Source: Nitrospinaceae bacterium
Lineage (GTDB): Bacteria; Nitrospinota; Nitrospinia; Nitrospinales; VA-1
DNA: 64,000 nucleotides
Direction: 5' to 3'
NCBI GenBank assembly: GCA_021604505.1
Contig: BQJC01000002.1
Span: 124,001 to 188,000 of the forward strand
The translations under genes were made by a program, and so were the position numbers. Position 1 is the stretch's first letter. Every line of letters starts with the position of its first letter. The notes beneath the pieces were generated by a model that saw only the letters and a list, made by a program, of their open reading frames with translations, searched no databases and had not been told where the DNA came from. Below are positions 24,108 to 34,256 of the stretch, in pieces.

Positions 24108-25577
24108 ATGAGAACCAAATTTAAATATTTCTTCGACAGCAAAGAGCGTCCCAAGGTCCTGGTCATGGGAGACCTCATTCTCGACGAATATCTCTGGGGC
24201 GGAGTGACCCGCATCTCTCCCGAAGCCCCGGTTCCCATTCTCGAGACCAAATCCGAAAACCTCTCTTTAGGTGGCGCCGCCAACGTCGCCAACAACCTCG
24301 CCGCTTTAGGGTGCGAAGTCTACCTGATAGGCGCCATCGGCCAGGATGAAAAAGGCGACCGCTTGTTGGAGCTGATCCGCGAACGGGGCGTCAACACCGA
24401 AGGCATTTTCCGGTTCGTGCACCGCCCGACCACCTCCAAAATGCGGATCATCGCACACAACCAGCAAATCCTGCGTATCGACAAAGAAGACAACCGCCCG
24501 ATCACCGAAGAGACCGAAAAGAAAATCATTCAGTTCACCAACAAGGTTCTGCCCAAGATGCAAGGCGTCATCTGCTCCGACTACCAAAAAGGAGTGTTGA
24601 CCGAAAAGGTGATCAAAAATCTGATGCACCGCGCTCAAAATTCCAGAAAAAGCGTCATCGTCGATCCCAAGAGCGCCGATTTTTCTCTTTACAAGGGAGC
24701 CACCGTCCTCACCCCCAATGAAAAAGAAGTCGAACGCTCGGTGCCCATAAAAATCAACAGCAGTGAAGATTTAGAGCGCGCCGCCGAATACTTGTTGACT
24801 CTGACACGGGCGGAAGCGCTTCTGGTCACCCGCGGCAAGGACGGCATGACCCTTTACCCAAACAAGGGCAAACCGGTAGCCATTCCCACCGTGGCCAAGG
24901 AAGTGTTCGACGTCACCGGCGCCGGTGACACCGTGGTCAGCGTTTTCGGAATGGCGGTCTTTGTCGGTTTTAATTTTCAGGAAGCCGCCTGGCTTTCCAA
25001 CATGGCCGGCAGTATCGTGGTGGGAAAAGTGGGAACCGCTGTCGTCACTCTGAACGAGATCAATGAATTTTTACAGGAAGAGACGTTTCGCACCTCGCAC
25101 ACCGTCCTGGAATTAGAAGAGCTTAAAAAACTGGTCAGCCTCGCCAAGAGCACCGGAAAGACCGTGGTCTTCACCAACGGTTGTTTCGATCTGATTCACG
25201 GCGGCCACATCGAATTTCTGCAAAAGGCCAAGGCCCTGGGCGACATCCTCGTGGTCGGGCTCAACAGCGACCCGTCCGTACGCGCGATCAAGGGCGACGG
25301 GCGGCCCATCAAAACCCAGCAGGAACGCGCCAACATCCTTTCCGCCTTACGCTACGTCGACTACATCACCATCTTCGATGAAAGCACGCCTGCCAACCTG
25401 ATCAGCGAAATCCGCCCGGATATTCTCGTGAAGGGCGACGACTACGCCATTGATGAAGTGGTCGGCCGGGAAATCGTCGAAGGTTACGGCGCACGGGTCG
25501 AACTCATCCCCATCGTCAAAGGCCACTCGACCACCAACACCGTCGAGCAGATCCTCGAAAACCACAAGCTGGATTGA
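24108..25577 (+). CDS. hldE: Bifunctional heptose 7-phosphate kinase/heptose 1-phosphate adenylyltransferase
   Basis: 489 residues, both activities fused as in E. coli. The N-terminal PfkB kinase (residues 1-330) has GGAANVANNLAALG and the catalytic DVTGAGDTVVSVF. The C-terminal nucleotidyltransferase (about 350-489) has FTNGCFDLIHGGHIEFL (HxGH). Makes ADP-heptose precursor for the LPS inner core. gmhB (the phosphatase between the two steps) is not in the window. Pathway's last gene hldD lies 1.1 kb away on the opposite strand. Confidence 0.97.
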   Translation: MRTKFKYFFDSKERPKVLVMGDLILDEYLWGGVTRISPEAPVPILETKSENLSLGGAANVANNLAALGCEVYLIGAIGQDEKGDRLLELIRERGVNTEGIFRFVHRPTTSKMRIIAHNQQILRIDKEDNRPITEETEKKIIQFTNKVLPKMQGVICSDYQKGVLTEKVIKNLMHRAQNSRKSVIVDPKSADFSLYKGATVLTPNEKEVERSVPIKINSSEDLERAAEYLLTLTRAEALLVTRGKDGMTLYPNKGKPVAIPTVAKEVFDVTGAGDTVVSVFGMAVFVGFNFQEAAWLSNMAGSIVVGKVGTAVVTLNEINEFLQEETFRTSHTVLELEELKKLVSLAKSTGKTVVFTNGCFDLIHGGHIEFLQKAKALGDILVVGLNSDPSVRAIKGDGRPIKTQQERANILSALRYVDYITIFDESTPANLISEIRPDILVKGDDYAIDEVVGREIVEGYGARVELIPIVKGHSTTNTVEQILENHKLD

Positions 25578-25670
25578 GATAATTTTCCCTGCACTTTGTG
25601 GTCACTCAGGGAACATGGATGTGAGTGGCAGAGCAAACTCTACCTCCCCCGCCAATAGCCTAATTTTGCC

Positions 25671-25700
25671 CCAACAATCATATTTATTAGCCAACAATCA
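25671..25700. repeat. Two exact copies of CCAACAATCA, 20 bases apart
   Basis: Copies at 25671-25680 and 25691-25700, same orientation. The centre-to-centre distance is about two helical turns, and they sit 44-73 bases upstream of the sigma-54-like -24 box. Could be activator binding sites; unproven. Confidence 0.45.
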
Positions 25701-25743
25701 GTCAAAGAACTGAGCAACTATCAGTTTATCAAAGGTTGTTATT

Positions 25744-25758
25744 TGGCATGGGGATTGC
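25744..25758 (+). promoter_or_regulatory. Sigma-54 promoter candidate before the membrane-protein gene
   Basis: TGGCAT (25744-25749), five bases, TTGC (25755-25758). GG and GC are in the required -24/-12 spacing of ten bases. Predicted start near 25770, 47 bases before the ATG at 25817. The -12 element lies inside an inverted repeat TGAGCAA (25711-25717)/TTGCTCA (25755-25761). Confidence 0.6.
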
Positions 25759-25816
25759 TCATAAATATTGTGCTCAGATGAAATCCTGATTCTACTAATC
25801 GAATTAAAGTAACCAG

Positions 25817-26110
25817 ATGCCAGCTAACTCTCCTGATGTTTTCGAACTTTTGCTTCAGCTTTTAATTATTTTAATCCCCTTGGGATGTGGAGTCAGTTTG
25901 ATTTTTGGAACAATCAAAAAGTGGCCTATGCTTGTTGATCCCCCCGAAAAAATGTGGACTTACTACTCTCATTCTTTACTCAAGAAGTTTTTTGGCAAAA
26001 AATTTTTAATCTACTATAACTATTTATTAGGATGTATATTTTTTTCCCTTGGCTTTTATGGCCTTACCGTAACCTTGAGAAAAATTTACAAAGTAATAAT
26101 TGGTAATTAA
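25817..26110 (+). CDS. Orphan two-TM membrane protein
   Basis: 97 residues. Two hydrophobic segments: about 8-31 (FELLLQLLIILIPLGCGVSLIF) and 66-88 (YLLGCIFFSLGFYGLTVTL). A basic, aromatic loop of about 30 residues lies between them. The composition and codons are AT-rich compared with hldE and hldD on each side, suggesting later arrival. No ribosome site stands out. I do not recognise a family. A sigma-54-like promoter sits about 70 bases upstream, so it may be an inducible small membrane protein (inference). Confidence 0.55.
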   Translation: MPANSPDVFELLLQLLIILIPLGCGVSLIFGTIKKWPMLVDPPEKMWTYYSHSLLKKFFGKKFLIYYNYLLGCIFFSLGFYGLTVTLRKIYKVIIGN

Positions 26111-26166
26111 CTATCTTTGTCAATTCAGGATTTTATAGGATACAAAATAAATGTTATTGGGTGCTT

Positions 26167-26559
26167 ATGAAAAGGAAAAAATTTCTCAGCGAATTTTTAG
26201 GTGCGCTAGGGGCAGTAAAAATAGAAAGGCACCATGAGAATGACAGTCTCATTTCGGGGAAAGTTATCTATAACTCAGATGATCCTAATGAGGCACAGGA
26301 GTTTCGCTGGCGCATACCGGAAAATGAGGTGCCATCAGAAGAAGTTAGGTTACTAGCAAAACTATTAAAAGAAGAAAACCTCTTGAGTATTGATAAAATC
26401 ATAGTGACACGAAAAGAGCTTGGAATTAGATACAATGCTGTATACGGCATAAAATTCACTGAGCAGGAGTTCAACAAAATTCTCGATGATTTAGAATCTG
26501 TTGAGGTTTCAATGGTGGATAACGACAAAGAAACAGACGTCTATTTTATCCATGAGTAA
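26167..26559 (+). CDS. Orphan acidic hypothetical protein
   Basis: 130 residues starting MKRKKFLSEFLGALGAVKIER; an in-frame GTG lies 6 bases earlier. Soluble, rich in Glu/Asp, with alternating strand and helix pattern (SGKVIYNSDDPNEAQEF, SEEVRLLAKLLKEENLLSIDKIIV, EQEFNKILDDLESVEVSMVD). It may be a small binding or immunity-like protein, but no motif supports any function. AT-rich like its neighbour and 56 bases after it, so probably one transcript from the sigma-54-like promoter. Confidence 0.6.
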   Translation: MKRKKFLSEFLGALGAVKIERHHENDSLISGKVIYNSDDPNEAQEFRWRIPENEVPSEEVRLLAKLLKEENLLSIDKIIVTRKELGIRYNAVYGIKFTEQEFNKILDDLESVEVSMVDNDKETDVYFIHE

Positions 26560-26560
26560 T

Positions 26561-26580
26561 GGGGCTAATCATGCCCCAAA
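26561..26580. terminator. Hairpin between convergent genes, weak terminator
   Basis: TGGGGC-7-GCCCCA hairpin directly after the orphan gene stop and downstream of the convergent hldD operon. No T-run follows on either strand, so termination is uncertain. Confidence 0.3.
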
Positions 26581-26650
26581 TTATAATCCACCACGGAAAA
26601 TACTGACTGACCTTGATTAAAGAATCCCCTCTCTCAACTTCAGGTCCACG

Positions 26651-27625
26651 TCACTCTCCCAAACGTTTTCCTGGGGCGAGATAGTTCTGCACGTAGTCTT
26701 GAATTCCGTCTTCAAGAGAAGTGCCGGGCGCATCGTAACCGGCTTTTTGGATTTTGCCCATTTCGGCTTGCGTGTGGTATTGATATTGATCGCGGATGGA
26801 AGCCGGCATCTCAATGTATTCGATATCGGGTTCCTTATCCATCGCTGAAAAAAGCGCACGTGCCATGGCGTTCCAGTTTCTCGCCTTTCCTGACCCCACA
26901 TTGAACAACCCGCCGATTTTCGGACGATCGAGAAAAAATAAGGTCATTGCCACCGCGTCCTTGATATAGAGAAAATCCCGCTCCTGCCCGCCGTCTTTGT
27001 ATTCGGGTTTATAGGATTTAAACAGCCGCATCTTTCCGGTTTCCTGAATCTGATAAAACCCCTTGCGCGCCAGACTCTGCATGTCACCCTTGTGGTATTC
27101 GTTCGGGCCGTAAACGTTGAAGTACTTCAAGCCGACGATTTTATCAAACGCGCCTTTGTCTCTGGCCCAAAGGTCAAACTGGTGCTTGCTCCCCCCGTAA
27201 AGGTTGAGCGGACGGAGTACATCCAATTGCGATTCATCGTCACGGTAACCTTGGGCGCCATCGCCGTAAGTCGCGGCGCTTGATGCATAAATGAAACGGG
27301 TTCCCTGTTCCAGGCAAAACGCGGCCAGCTCGCGGGTGTATACAAAATTATTTGTTCTCAAAAATTCCTGATCGGTTTCCGTGGTGGAGGAACACGCCCC
27401 CATGTGGATGATGGCCTCTATGGAAGAAGTCAGCGAACGGGACCGGACAGATTGCAGGAACGCGTCTTTACCTTGAAGACCATCAAATTTTAACGCGGCG
27501 AGGTTTTTTTCTTTCTCCGGATGATCGACGTCGTCGACGATGAGAATTTTGGACATCTCGCGTTTATTGAGTGCATGGCCAATCGCACTGCCGATGAACC
27601 CGGCCCCTCCCGTTACAACGATCAT
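26651..27625 (-). CDS. hldD: ADP-L-glycero-D-manno-heptose 6-epimerase
   Basis: 324 residues from ATG 27625, which has AGAGG 4 bases upstream; the longer frame to 27760 has no such site. NADP Rossmann TGGAGFIGSAIGHALN. Family hallmarks: HMGACSSTTETD, SSAATYGDG, LYGGSKHQFDLWA (Tyr-x3-Lys variant), KYFNVYGPNEYHKGDM. Makes the L,D-heptose form used in LPS core. Last gene of a minus-strand run with the M48 protease 8 bases upstream, away from gmhA-hldE by the AT-rich island. Confidence 0.97.
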   Translation of the reverse strand: MIVVTGGAGFIGSAIGHALNKREMSKILIVDDVDHPEKEKNLAALKFDGLQGKDAFLQSVRSRSLTSSIEAIIHMGACSSTTETDQEFLRTNNFVYTRELAAFCLEQGTRFIYASSAATYGDGAQGYRDDESQLDVLRPLNLYGGSKHQFDLWARDKGAFDKIVGLKYFNVYGPNEYHKGDMQSLARKGFYQIQETGKMRLFKSYKPEYKDGGQERDFLYIKDAVAMTLFFLDRPKIGGLFNVGSGKARNWNAMARALFSAMDKEPDIEYIEMPASIRDQYQYHTQAEMGKIQKAGYDAPGTSLEDGIQDYVQNYLAPGKRLGE

Positions 27626-31160: not shown

Positions 31161-31406
31161 CACATAACCATTAACCCATTAAAATACAATAACATAAGAT
31201 CGACTTGGAGTCCATAAAAGTTTCCTTCCCAAAATACCGGCAGATAAAAATTCAGGCTCCAAACAGCCTCTTTCCGCTCGGCAACAATAAGTTCAAAAAG
31301 CTTTGGATTTATGGCACTTGCTTTTAGGAAGCGAAACCTTTTGCAAAGAGAGGCGGCCCCCCGGCTTTTGCAGGACAAACCCTCTTTAAAATGTTATGAT
31401 GCATTC
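31161..31406. other. Intergenic region with possible minus-strand transcript
   Basis: About 245 bases between the MBL gene terminator and the activator gene. A minus-strand frame of 72 codons with a TTG start ends exactly at the terminator hairpin (stop at 31160-31162), but has no ribosome site and an unlikely composition. A small hairpin AGGCT-GTTTGG-AGCCT lies in it. I see no recognised RNA. Confidence 0.3.
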
Positions 31407-32798
31407 ATGCAACAAAAAATCCTGATCCTCGACCCCAGCCGGCCTTCGGTAGAAACCCTGCGGCAAACCCTCAAACATCAAAAATACGAAGTTATTGCGG
31501 GGTACACTGCCAATGAAGGGCAAAAAAGGCTGCTGGAAAAAGTTTTTCACCTGGCCCTCATCGACGAAAAAATTGTTGCAGAAAATGGACAGAAATTTCT
31601 GGACAATTTACACCGCAAATTCCCTGGCCTGCCAATCATCCTCCTCACCCGCCAGGGCTTGTCCCTCGAAATAGAAGAAAGCGCGGAAAAATCAGGTTTT
31701 CATTTGTTTCCCCGGTCCCGGGGAACGCCTGAACTGCTGGAATTGATCGCCGAGATATTCAAATGTGCGAATGCCGAGGGCGGTCATTTTGATGCCGAAA
31801 CCTGGATGGAAAAACCCTTTCAACTGCTGGGAGAAAGCGCATCCATCCAAAATCTACGCGAAACCCTGCGGACGGTGGCGGTCACCGACGCCGGGGTCTT
31901 GTTGCGCGGAGAAACGGGAACCGGAAAAGAACTGGCCGCCCGTTTCCTGCACGCCCACAGCTTAAGGAGTCAGAACCAGTTTGTGGCCGTCAATTGCGCC
32001 GCTCTCACGGAATCTCTCCTTGAGAGCGAATTGTTCGGGCACGAAAAAGGCGCCTTCACCGGGGCCCATCGACAAAAACTGGGAAAATTCGAATATGCCG
32101 GTTCCGGTACGCTTTTCCTCGATGAGATTGGCGAAATCTCTCCGCATCTTCAGGCCAAAATGCTTCGCGTACTCGACGACCGGCAGTTCGAGCGGGTCGG
32201 AGGTAACAAAACCCTGATCGTTCATTGCCGGGTGATTGCCGCCTCCAACATCGATTTTGCAGAAGCCTTAAAAGCTGGGGGGTTCCGCGAAGATCTCTAT
32301 TACCGGCTCAACGTCATATCCATCGACCTGCCCCCGCTGAAAAACCGCTTGCAGGATATCCCCATCCTGGCGCAGCATTTTTTGACCCAAAAATCCAAGC
32401 GCCACAACAAACCGGCGCCTGAGATCGCTCCCAAGGCTATGGAACAACTGCAGCAATATTCCTGGCCGGGAAATATAAGAGAACTGGAAAACATCGTCGA
32501 GCAGGCGGTGATCCTTTGCAGAACCGACAGCATCGACCGCTTTCCTTTGCCTGTCCAGCAGCCCCTCCCTCCCTCCCAGGAAACCCTTCAGGAAGGGGAC
32601 CCTTTGCAAATGACCCTGAAAGAATACCTGGCGACGATCCTCAAAAAATCCGAAGCCCGCTACTTTGAAGCCCTGTTGAAGAAACATAAGGGCCATATTT
32701 CCCGGACCGCCAAATCCGCGGGAATCGACCGAAAAACCTTTTACCGGAAAATTGCGCATTGCGGAATCGACCCCAAAGCCTACAAGCCACAGAAATAG
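31407..32798 (+). CDS. Sigma-54 activator with a degenerate receiver domain
   Basis: 463 residues, ATG at 31407. Residues 1-120 are a response-regulator receiver in shape, with the phosphorylatable Asp53 (LALID) and Thr81. However, the first acidic pair is reduced to a single Asp (ILILDPSRPS) and the conserved Lys is replaced in HLFPRSRG. Residues 140-370 are a sigma-54 AAA+ domain with Walker A GETGTGKE (168-175) and GAFTGA (215-220), the loop that contacts sigma-54. A Fis-type helix-turn-helix follows (GHISRTAKSAGIDRKTFYRKI). It may be unphosphorylated or regulated otherwise. Its natural target is the sigma-54 promoter at 32938, just downstream. Confidence 0.93.
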   Translation: MQQKILILDPSRPSVETLRQTLKHQKYEVIAGYTANEGQKRLLEKVFHLALIDEKIVAENGQKFLDNLHRKFPGLPIILLTRQGLSLEIEESAEKSGFHLFPRSRGTPELLELIAEIFKCANAEGGHFDAETWMEKPFQLLGESASIQNLRETLRTVAVTDAGVLLRGETGTGKELAARFLHAHSLRSQNQFVAVNCAALTESLLESELFGHEKGAFTGAHRQKLGKFEYAGSGTLFLDEIGEISPHLQAKMLRVLDDRQFERVGGNKTLIVHCRVIAASNIDFAEALKAGGFREDLYYRLNVISIDLPPLKNRLQDIPILAQHFLTQKSKRHNKPAPEIAPKAMEQLQQYSWPGNIRELENIVEQAVILCRTDSIDRFPLPVQQPLPPSQETLQEGDPLQMTLKEYLATILKKSEARYFEALLKKHKGHISRTAKSAGIDRKTFYRKIAHCGIDPKAYKPQK

Positions 32799-32937: not shown

Positions 32938-32952
32938 TGGCACATTAATTGC
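32938..32952 (+). promoter_or_regulatory. Near-consensus sigma-54 promoter
   Basis: TGGCAC (32938-32943), ATTAA, TTGC (32949-32952); matches TGGCAC-N5-TTGC in full. Start expected near 32964, about 70 bases before the Rho_N/DUF4912 gene. It lies 140 bases after the stop of the sigma-54 activator gene on the same strand. Confidence 0.75.
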
Positions 32953-33032
32953 TTTTAAAAAGGCAATAAGCCTCGATTTTTGAGGAAAAAATCCAAAACC
33001 GGTGCTCCGGTCCCTGCCATCCGAGGAAAGCC

Positions 33033-34256
33033 ATGCCCACTGTCGATATATCCAAAATGACCAAGGACGACTTGCTCAAACTCGCCGCCAAAAGAAAAAT
33101 TGCCGTGAAAAAATCCATGCTTAAAAGTGAAATTCAGGCGGTTATTAAAAAAGAGATGAAAAAGATCGCAAAAGCCACAGCCGCAAAAAAGGCGGCTGTA
33201 AAAACTAAAAAAACACCTTTGAAAAAAACCGCTGTAAAAGCTGGAAGAACCCCGGCGAAAGCAAAAAGAAAAGAAGAAAAACCCAAAACGTCACCCAAGG
33301 CAAAATCCAAAAAACCCGCGCTCACAACCAAACCGAAGGGAACGACCAAAAAAATAACCGCAACCGCCAAACCTAAGTCCAGCGCAGGGAAAACAAAATC
33401 GACCCCCCCCCCTTCGAAAGCGCTCGCATCCCGAAAAAAAGAAAAGACAGCGACAAAGACAGCGACAAAGAAAAGGGTCCGGAAAAAAACAGCCTCCCCA
33501 CCGTCGTCACCGTCTTCTGCAAGCATTAAGGAACTGCGCCCGAAATTTGAACTGGAAGACAGCGCTCAGGAGGCGAAATTCATCATCGGCAAACCAGACA
33601 TTCGCGACGAATCGCATGCAGAACAATTCCAGGAACTGCCCGCGAATTACGGCGACAACAAACTTGTCCTCCTGGTCCGCGATCCCTACTGGTGTTTTCT
33701 TTACTGGGAATTGCAATCCGAAAAAATTGCAGAAGGACTGCAAAGGCTCCACCGGAACCAGAGCGAAGTCCGCCATATTTTGCGTATCCATTCCCCCTCA
33801 GCAGGTGGAACATACTTTGATGTGGACGTTGACTTTCGGGCTGAAAGTCACTACATCCAACTGTCTCCCCCCGGCGCTTCGTTTTTCGCTGAAATCGGCC
33901 TTTTGGACCCGGAGGGCCACTTCGCCGCTCTGGCCATATCCAACACCATCACGCTTCCCCTGGACGGCCCTTCAGACGTCATCGATGAAAAGTGGATGAC
34001 CACCAGTGAAAACTTTGAAGAAATCTATGCCCTGTCCGGCGGCAGGTTGGCAGAGAGTTTGAATTTTGGAAGCTCTGAAGAGTTGCAAAAAATCAGAAGC
34101 GAGCAACGAAGGCTGACTATGGATTTTTCTTCATCTTCCGTCAGCAGTTTCAGTTCCGGACAAACCCCAAACCCCCATATAAAGACGTTCAGTTACCGGA
34201 TCGATGCCGAACAGGCTCTTCCTGACGAAACGAATTCAAAAGAGGAAAAACAATGA
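33033..34256 (+). CDS. Rho_N / Lys-rich / DUF4912 protein
   Basis: 407 residues in three parts. Residues 1-44 resemble the Rho N-terminal/SAP-like helix bundle (DISKMTKDDLLKLAAKRKI). Residues 45-165 are a histone H1-like run of Lys, Ala, Thr and Pro with short repeats. Residues about 195-320 hold DUF4912 (LPANYGDNKLVLLVRDPYWCFLYWEL); the C-terminal 70 residues are Ser-rich. A C10 tract at 33403-33412 lies in the basic linker. The acidic Ser-rich tail and basic linker could bind nucleic acid or glycogen, which is inference. It overlaps the GH57 gene by 4 bases, so the two are translated together from the sigma-54 promoter. Confidence 0.9.
   Translation: MPTVDISKMTKDDLLKLAAKRKIAVKKSMLKSEIQAVIKKEMKKIAKATAAKKAAVKTKKTPLKKTAVKAGRTPAKAKRKEEKPKTSPKAKSKKPALTTKPKGTTKKITATAKPKSSAGKTKSTPPPSKALASRKKEKTATKTATKKRVRKKTASPPSSPSSASIKELRPKFELEDSAQEAKFIIGKPDIRDESHAEQFQELPANYGDNKLVLLVRDPYWCFLYWELQSEKIAEGLQRLHRNQSEVRHILRIHSPSAGGTYFDVDVDFRAESHYIQLSPPGASFFAEIGLLDPEGHFAALAISNTITLPLDGPSDVIDEKWMTTSENFEEIYALSGGRLAESLNFGSSEELQKIRSEQRRLTMDFSSSSVSSFSSGQTPNPHIKTFSYRIDAEQALPDETNSKEEKQ
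33403..33412. repeat. Homopolymer C10 in the DUF4912 gene
   Basis: Ten Cs inside the codons for Thr-Pro-Pro-Pro. Loss or gain of one base would shift the frame before DUF4912 and uncouple the downstream gene. Slippage at such tracts is a known phase-variation mechanism elsewhere; no variation can be seen in a single sequence. Confidence 0.9.
33447..33470. repeat. Tandem duplication of a 12-base unit
   Basis: ACAGCGACAAAG occurs twice in tandem inside the Lys-rich linker, encoding two Thr-Ala-Thr-Lys units. It shows how the linker lengthens by in-frame duplication. Confidence 0.9.

Follow-up and report, generated by a model that had tools for sequence, protein, structure and literature searches.

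Two small genes lie between hldE and hldD in the genome of a Nitrospinaceae bacterium, and the question this locus raises is what they are, how they came to be there, and what they might do. The window, by which we mean the whole stretch of 64,000 nucleotides that was analysed, is part of a contig of 769 kb in a genome of 3.64 Mb, and a contaminating scrap is thereby ruled out. The features of the locus are the following.

24108-25577, plus strand: hldE (NCBIfam profile match)
25700-26605, no strand: inserted AT-rich patch (alignment with the junction of the same-genus genome G001, and GC content; ends uncertain by about 20-40 bp)
25744-25759, plus strand: sigma-54-type promoter candidate, TGGCATGGGGATTGCT (exact match; motif counts above chance)
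25817-26110, plus strand: 97-aa ORF with two predicted transmembrane (TM) helices, assigned to an Imm17-like putative immunity family (relatives, Rhs linkage of two of them, a near-match to Imm17, AlphaFold2)
26167-26559, plus strand: 130-aa acidic soluble ORFan, possible second immunity protein (homolog-free; pI 5.0)
26560-26578, plus strand: GGGGC...GCCCC hairpin, possible transcript end (directly 3' of the second gene; T run absent; fold z -1.8)
26651-27625, minus strand: hldD (NCBIfam profile match)

Composition of the locus

A sequence-only reading of this DNA had described an AT-rich two-gene patch between hldE and hldD, and the ORF list, the base composition and the NCBIfam matches of the flanking genes confirm it. 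The hldE and hldD genes are convergent, with the two ORFs between them, both on the plus strand and 56 bp apart. GC falls from about 0.52 to about 0.34 across the patch (0.35 for the patch as a whole), and GC3 is 0.35 and 0.39 in the two ORFs, compared with 0.71 in hldE and 0.59 in hldD. When the patch was shuffled by mononucleotides, 0.1% of the shuffles had a longest ORF of at least 130 codons and 2.8% one of at least 97. An alternative GTG start at 26161 would lengthen the 130-aa protein to 132 aa. We also noted an imperfect inverted repeat (25778-25807 and 26107-26136; 30 nt, 70%) that flanks the 97-aa gene and may be due to chance.

Insertion at the hldE-hldD junction

That the genes were gained by transfer had been suggested from the sequence, with this junction in related genomes as the comparison to make, and gain by insertion is what the comparison supports, the junctions of relatives being either empty or otherwise filled. 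In G001 only 155 bp separate the convergent hldE and hldD, and this DNA aligns at its left end to positions 25575-25700 of the window and at its right end to about 26605-26650; positions 25578-25700 are ordinary junction DNA, common to the window and G001. Given that short junction, and gaps of about 30-150 bp in the family members G006, G008, G009 and G011, we conclude that the roughly 0.9-kb patch was inserted in this lineage. The comparison was made without G002 and G003, where hldE and hldD are on separate contigs, and G004, where hldD was not found.

In the genome G037, the gap is 454 bp and is filled by a different short ORF, starting MPYDKGLAERMEGLIDPRQGLVHKKMFGGIGYML, which we take to be TfoX-N-like. 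Since the G037 junction holds another small gene, the spot tolerates small genes, and such genes have been acquired here in two lineages, that of the window and that of G037. No direct repeats were found at the ends of the insertion, and a search for structured RNA within the patch gave none. We also looked by eye for integron attC sites near the genes and rejected this possibility, as there were no matching core sites.

The 97-aa protein belongs to a small family

Neither protein was thought to have a recognisable family. Direct library scans of the two agree with this, but a search of 77 genomes of the phylum does not: there the 97-aa protein has six relatives that make up, with it, a family of seven with a patchy distribution. 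The closest, in the same-genus genome G003, is 54% identical. Plasmid records, viral contigs and the genome_contigs collection yielded no relative of the 97-aa protein at the sensitivity used. The weak matches L002, L003 and L011-L013 are attributed to chance. A PADLOC scan gave no match, and sequence and fold searches of the PDB returned nothing meaningful.

Structure prediction of each protein alone, also proposed from the sequence, was informative for the first protein and not for the second. The 97-aa protein is predicted to have two TM helices (residues 8-33 and 61-95), and its AlphaFold2 model (pLDDT 91) consists of two long helices with short ones joining them. The loop is basic and aromatic, with W36, VDPPE, W47-T-Y49 and KK-FFG-KK, and across the family it follows the consensus G-T-x-K-K-W-x3-V-D-P-P-E-x2-W. 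The 130-aa protein reached a pLDDT of 37 from its single sequence, at which its fold is not predictable.

Two relatives lie directly behind Rhs toxin tips

The relative in G003 starts 33 bp 3' of an orphan fragment of an Rhs core that has its own variable C-terminal tip (CT), in the order 1096-aa Rhs gene, 116-aa small gene, orphan Rhs core-CT, relative of the 97-aa protein. In G037, 22 bp separate the relative from an Rhs-CT ORF on its 5' side, and directly after it come a further Rhs-CT fragment and one more small TM protein, making this a cassette array. The tips measure about 116 aa past the core in G003 and about 146 aa in G037, and the relative next to each has 80 aa. The Rhs identity of the cores is secure, with TIGR03696 matches at E-values of 1e-19 to 1e-20. 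The other four of the six relatives do not adjoin an Rhs gene. By an estimate from Rhs counts that assumes one gene per kb, chance would place at least two of six relatives immediately 3' of an Rhs gene with a probability of about 3e-5. Other Rhs-CTs of these genomes often have unrelated small ORFs behind them, at -4 to +35 bp, several with TM helices, and a toxin followed by its immunity gene is the standard order for Rhs effectors (PMC10539506). Since its closest relatives are encoded directly behind Rhs toxin tips, the 97-aa gene most probably serves as a spare immunity gene, one that would protect the bacterium from the toxins of its neighbours. We call it an orphan because at the window locus itself there is no Rhs tip upstream.

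The two CTs that precede the G003 and G037 relatives have no recognisable likeness to each other, and the CTs ahead of the relatives match no toxin or enzyme family. They are glycine-rich with hydrophobic stretches, which suits membrane action without proving it. We made two further observations around the relatives. The region G037:C1:3058000-3070000 is an array of three or more Rhs-CT/immunity cassettes that have been displaced, and one of the tips has a weak L,D-transpeptidase (YkuD) match. The relative in G046 (G046:C193, 4311-7688, minus strand) is surrounded by small, mostly membrane, unannotated ORFs, possibly a poly-immunity locus.

Rhs genes in the same genome

We searched the genome that carries the patch with TIGR03696 and an Rhs protein query; PF03527, whose control was also blank, was set aside. 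There is a single Rhs core (G000:C6, at about 37-40 kb), which is 36% identical to the Rhs core of G037 and of a different lineage. Its gene has a histidine-rich tip with an ankyrin-repeat gene directly behind it, likely a toxin-immunity pair of its own. Given that the sole Rhs core is of another lineage and has another downstream gene, we consider the cognate Rhs toxin to be absent from the assembly, which is 96% complete, as far as Rhs scaffolds are concerned. No Rhs cores were found in G001, G002 and G004, all of the same genus, and the non-coding DNA of the patch showed no detectable likeness to Rhs.

A candidate sigma-54 promoter

A sigma-54-like promoter had been placed ahead of the two genes, and motif counts support this statistically. 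The candidate site lies inside the inserted part and matches TGGCAYN5TTGCW exactly, with GG and GC elements at -24 and -12 in fixed spacing, a pattern that is found above chance. Transcription is predicted to start near 25770, about 47 nt upstream of the ATG of the 97-aa gene. In the window, the pattern occurs three times against 0.11 expected. In the whole genome, a tighter sigma-54 pattern has 16 sites, and the same pattern reversed, as a control, has 2, so that about seven in eight typical matches should be real. An NtrC-type gene at 31311-32798 carries the GAFTGA motif, the mark of sigma-54 activation, and the organism therefore probably uses this mode of activation. On the sequence evidence, the 97-aa gene is probably expressed from a sigma-54 promoter.

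The second exact site in the window (32938-32953, plus strand) is 80 bp before a 407-aa ORF (33033-34256) and 140 bp downstream of the NtrC-type gene; the third is at 1965-1980 on the minus strand. At the other end of the two-gene patch, a terminator scan found no terminator.

The 130-aa protein and the two genes as a pair

The 130-aa protein has no homolog in the library scans, the 77 genomes of the phylum, plasmid and phage records, viral contigs or the PDB. A match to Clostridia in the genome_contigs collection (L098) was rejected as chance, being a 25-residue stretch with KFTEQEFN in an unrelated 282-aa ORF. The gene is missing near all six relatives of the 97-aa gene, and a conserved two-gene system is unlikely for that reason. 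The earlier suggestion of a single system made up of both genes thus finds no support, whereas that of a transferred small system for defence or the membrane survives roughly, as orphan Rhs immunity, for the 97-aa protein. The length and acidity of the 130-aa protein fit an immunity protein, and that it is a second one is our guess.

Interpretation

We believe, with a probability of roughly two in three, that the patch is an orphan immunity locus gained by this genome, and that its 97-aa protein belongs to an Imm17-like family of Rhs immunity proteins, with its toxin missing. Members of the family would normally be encoded right after the variable toxin tip at the C-terminus of an Rhs (YD-repeat) polymorphic toxin, and here the gene would have entered the hldE-hldD junction without the toxin. 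Its product would be made from the sigma-54 promoter and placed in the inner membrane, with the basic, aromatic loop facing the cytoplasm (positive-inside rule, applied by eye), and may bind or block a membrane-acting Rhs tip, either pore-forming or membrane-crossing, that comes from a neighbouring cell. The 130-aa acidic protein would most simply be a second, unrelated orphan immunity protein in the same patch.

Two genes on the same strand at this short spacing, with a statistically good sigma-54 site in front, LPS genes adjoining, and four relatives of the 97-aa gene without Rhs, would also suit a sigma-54-controlled stress or envelope module in which both proteins act together and have no toxin link. 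We consider this unlikely, because the 130-aa gene is homolog-free and not near any relative of its neighbour, the junction is empty in a genome of the same genus, and two relatives are locked behind Rhs tips. Those two relatives hold the immunity position and not the toxin position, which also counts against a toxin-antitoxin or abortive defence pair with the two-TM protein as membrane toxin and the acidic protein as antidote. A small hydrophobic protein next to an acidic soluble one in an acquired AT-rich patch is what such a pair would look like, but the 130-aa gene does not accompany the relatives of the 97-aa protein and PADLOC recognised no system, and to this explanation we give the least credence.

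A decaying remnant, that is, a functionless fossil of an Rhs cassette after loss of its toxin, would agree with the immunity side alone being left and with non-coding DNA in which nothing Rhs-like was detected. However, both reading frames are intact, a well-formed promoter motif stands ahead of the first gene, and the conserved loop residues are retained, so that we find a fossil quite improbable.

Within the orphan immunity reading, a more specific proposal is a sigma-54-inducible, stand-alone immunity islet, in which an Rhs immunity gene has been captured and, together with a second immunity gene, has come under the control of an alternative sigma factor. We offer this tentatively, with the odds against it. 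If true, an environmental signal would switch on protection from neighbours, untied from any toxin of the cell's own. More broadly, the locus suggests that orphan immunity genes can sit singly between housekeeping genes and come under sigma-54 control. Two nameless small genes have become a testable proposal, with the Rhs tips of G003 and G037 as candidate cognate toxins.

Comparison with known systems

The known family closest to the 97-aa protein is Imm17 (PF15562). As described in PMC3482391, a stretch with WxW and an R separates its two TM helices, it occurs in mixed poly-immunity loci, and such proteins may, as that paper suggests, act at the membrane. The G038 relative scores 23.2 bits against Imm17 (E 6.4e-5), where the curated cut-off is 25 bits; none of the seven members reaches that cut-off, and the window protein has no match at E<=10. 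In its model the window protein has the two TM helices. The loop WxW is present in three of the seven members (WLW in G008, WYW in G046, WMW in G044), the window protein has WxY, and the basic site is R or K. The likeness thus lies in size, the two TM helices, an aromatic and basic loop, a patchy distribution and linkage to toxin cassettes; the differences are the score below the cut-off, the extra VDPPE loop motif and Rhs linkage in two cases, as well as a phylum that is absent from the Imm17 listing of PMC3482391. Judged by these sequence features, the family appears to form a new branch of Imm17-like proteins, marked by VDPPE in the loop.

Two-TM inner-membrane immunity proteins are also known from contact-dependent inhibition, as Imm-CdiI (PMC3482391), but the library scans gave no sequence similarity to them, and the linked relatives are next to Rhs rather than CdiA. 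As a locus, the patch resembles the orphan Rhs/T6SS immunity genes of Serratia Db10 (PMC10539506) and the rAID arrays of Bacteroidales (PMC12247911) in being effector-less, gained by transfer and derived from Rhs-CT/immunity cassettes. Those genes stand in arrays or follow an Rhs gene, whereas the window gene stands alone between housekeeping genes, without a recombinase and with a sigma-54-like promoter. Orphan immunity genes are uncommon and already known; what is unusual here is the sigma-54-type promoter.
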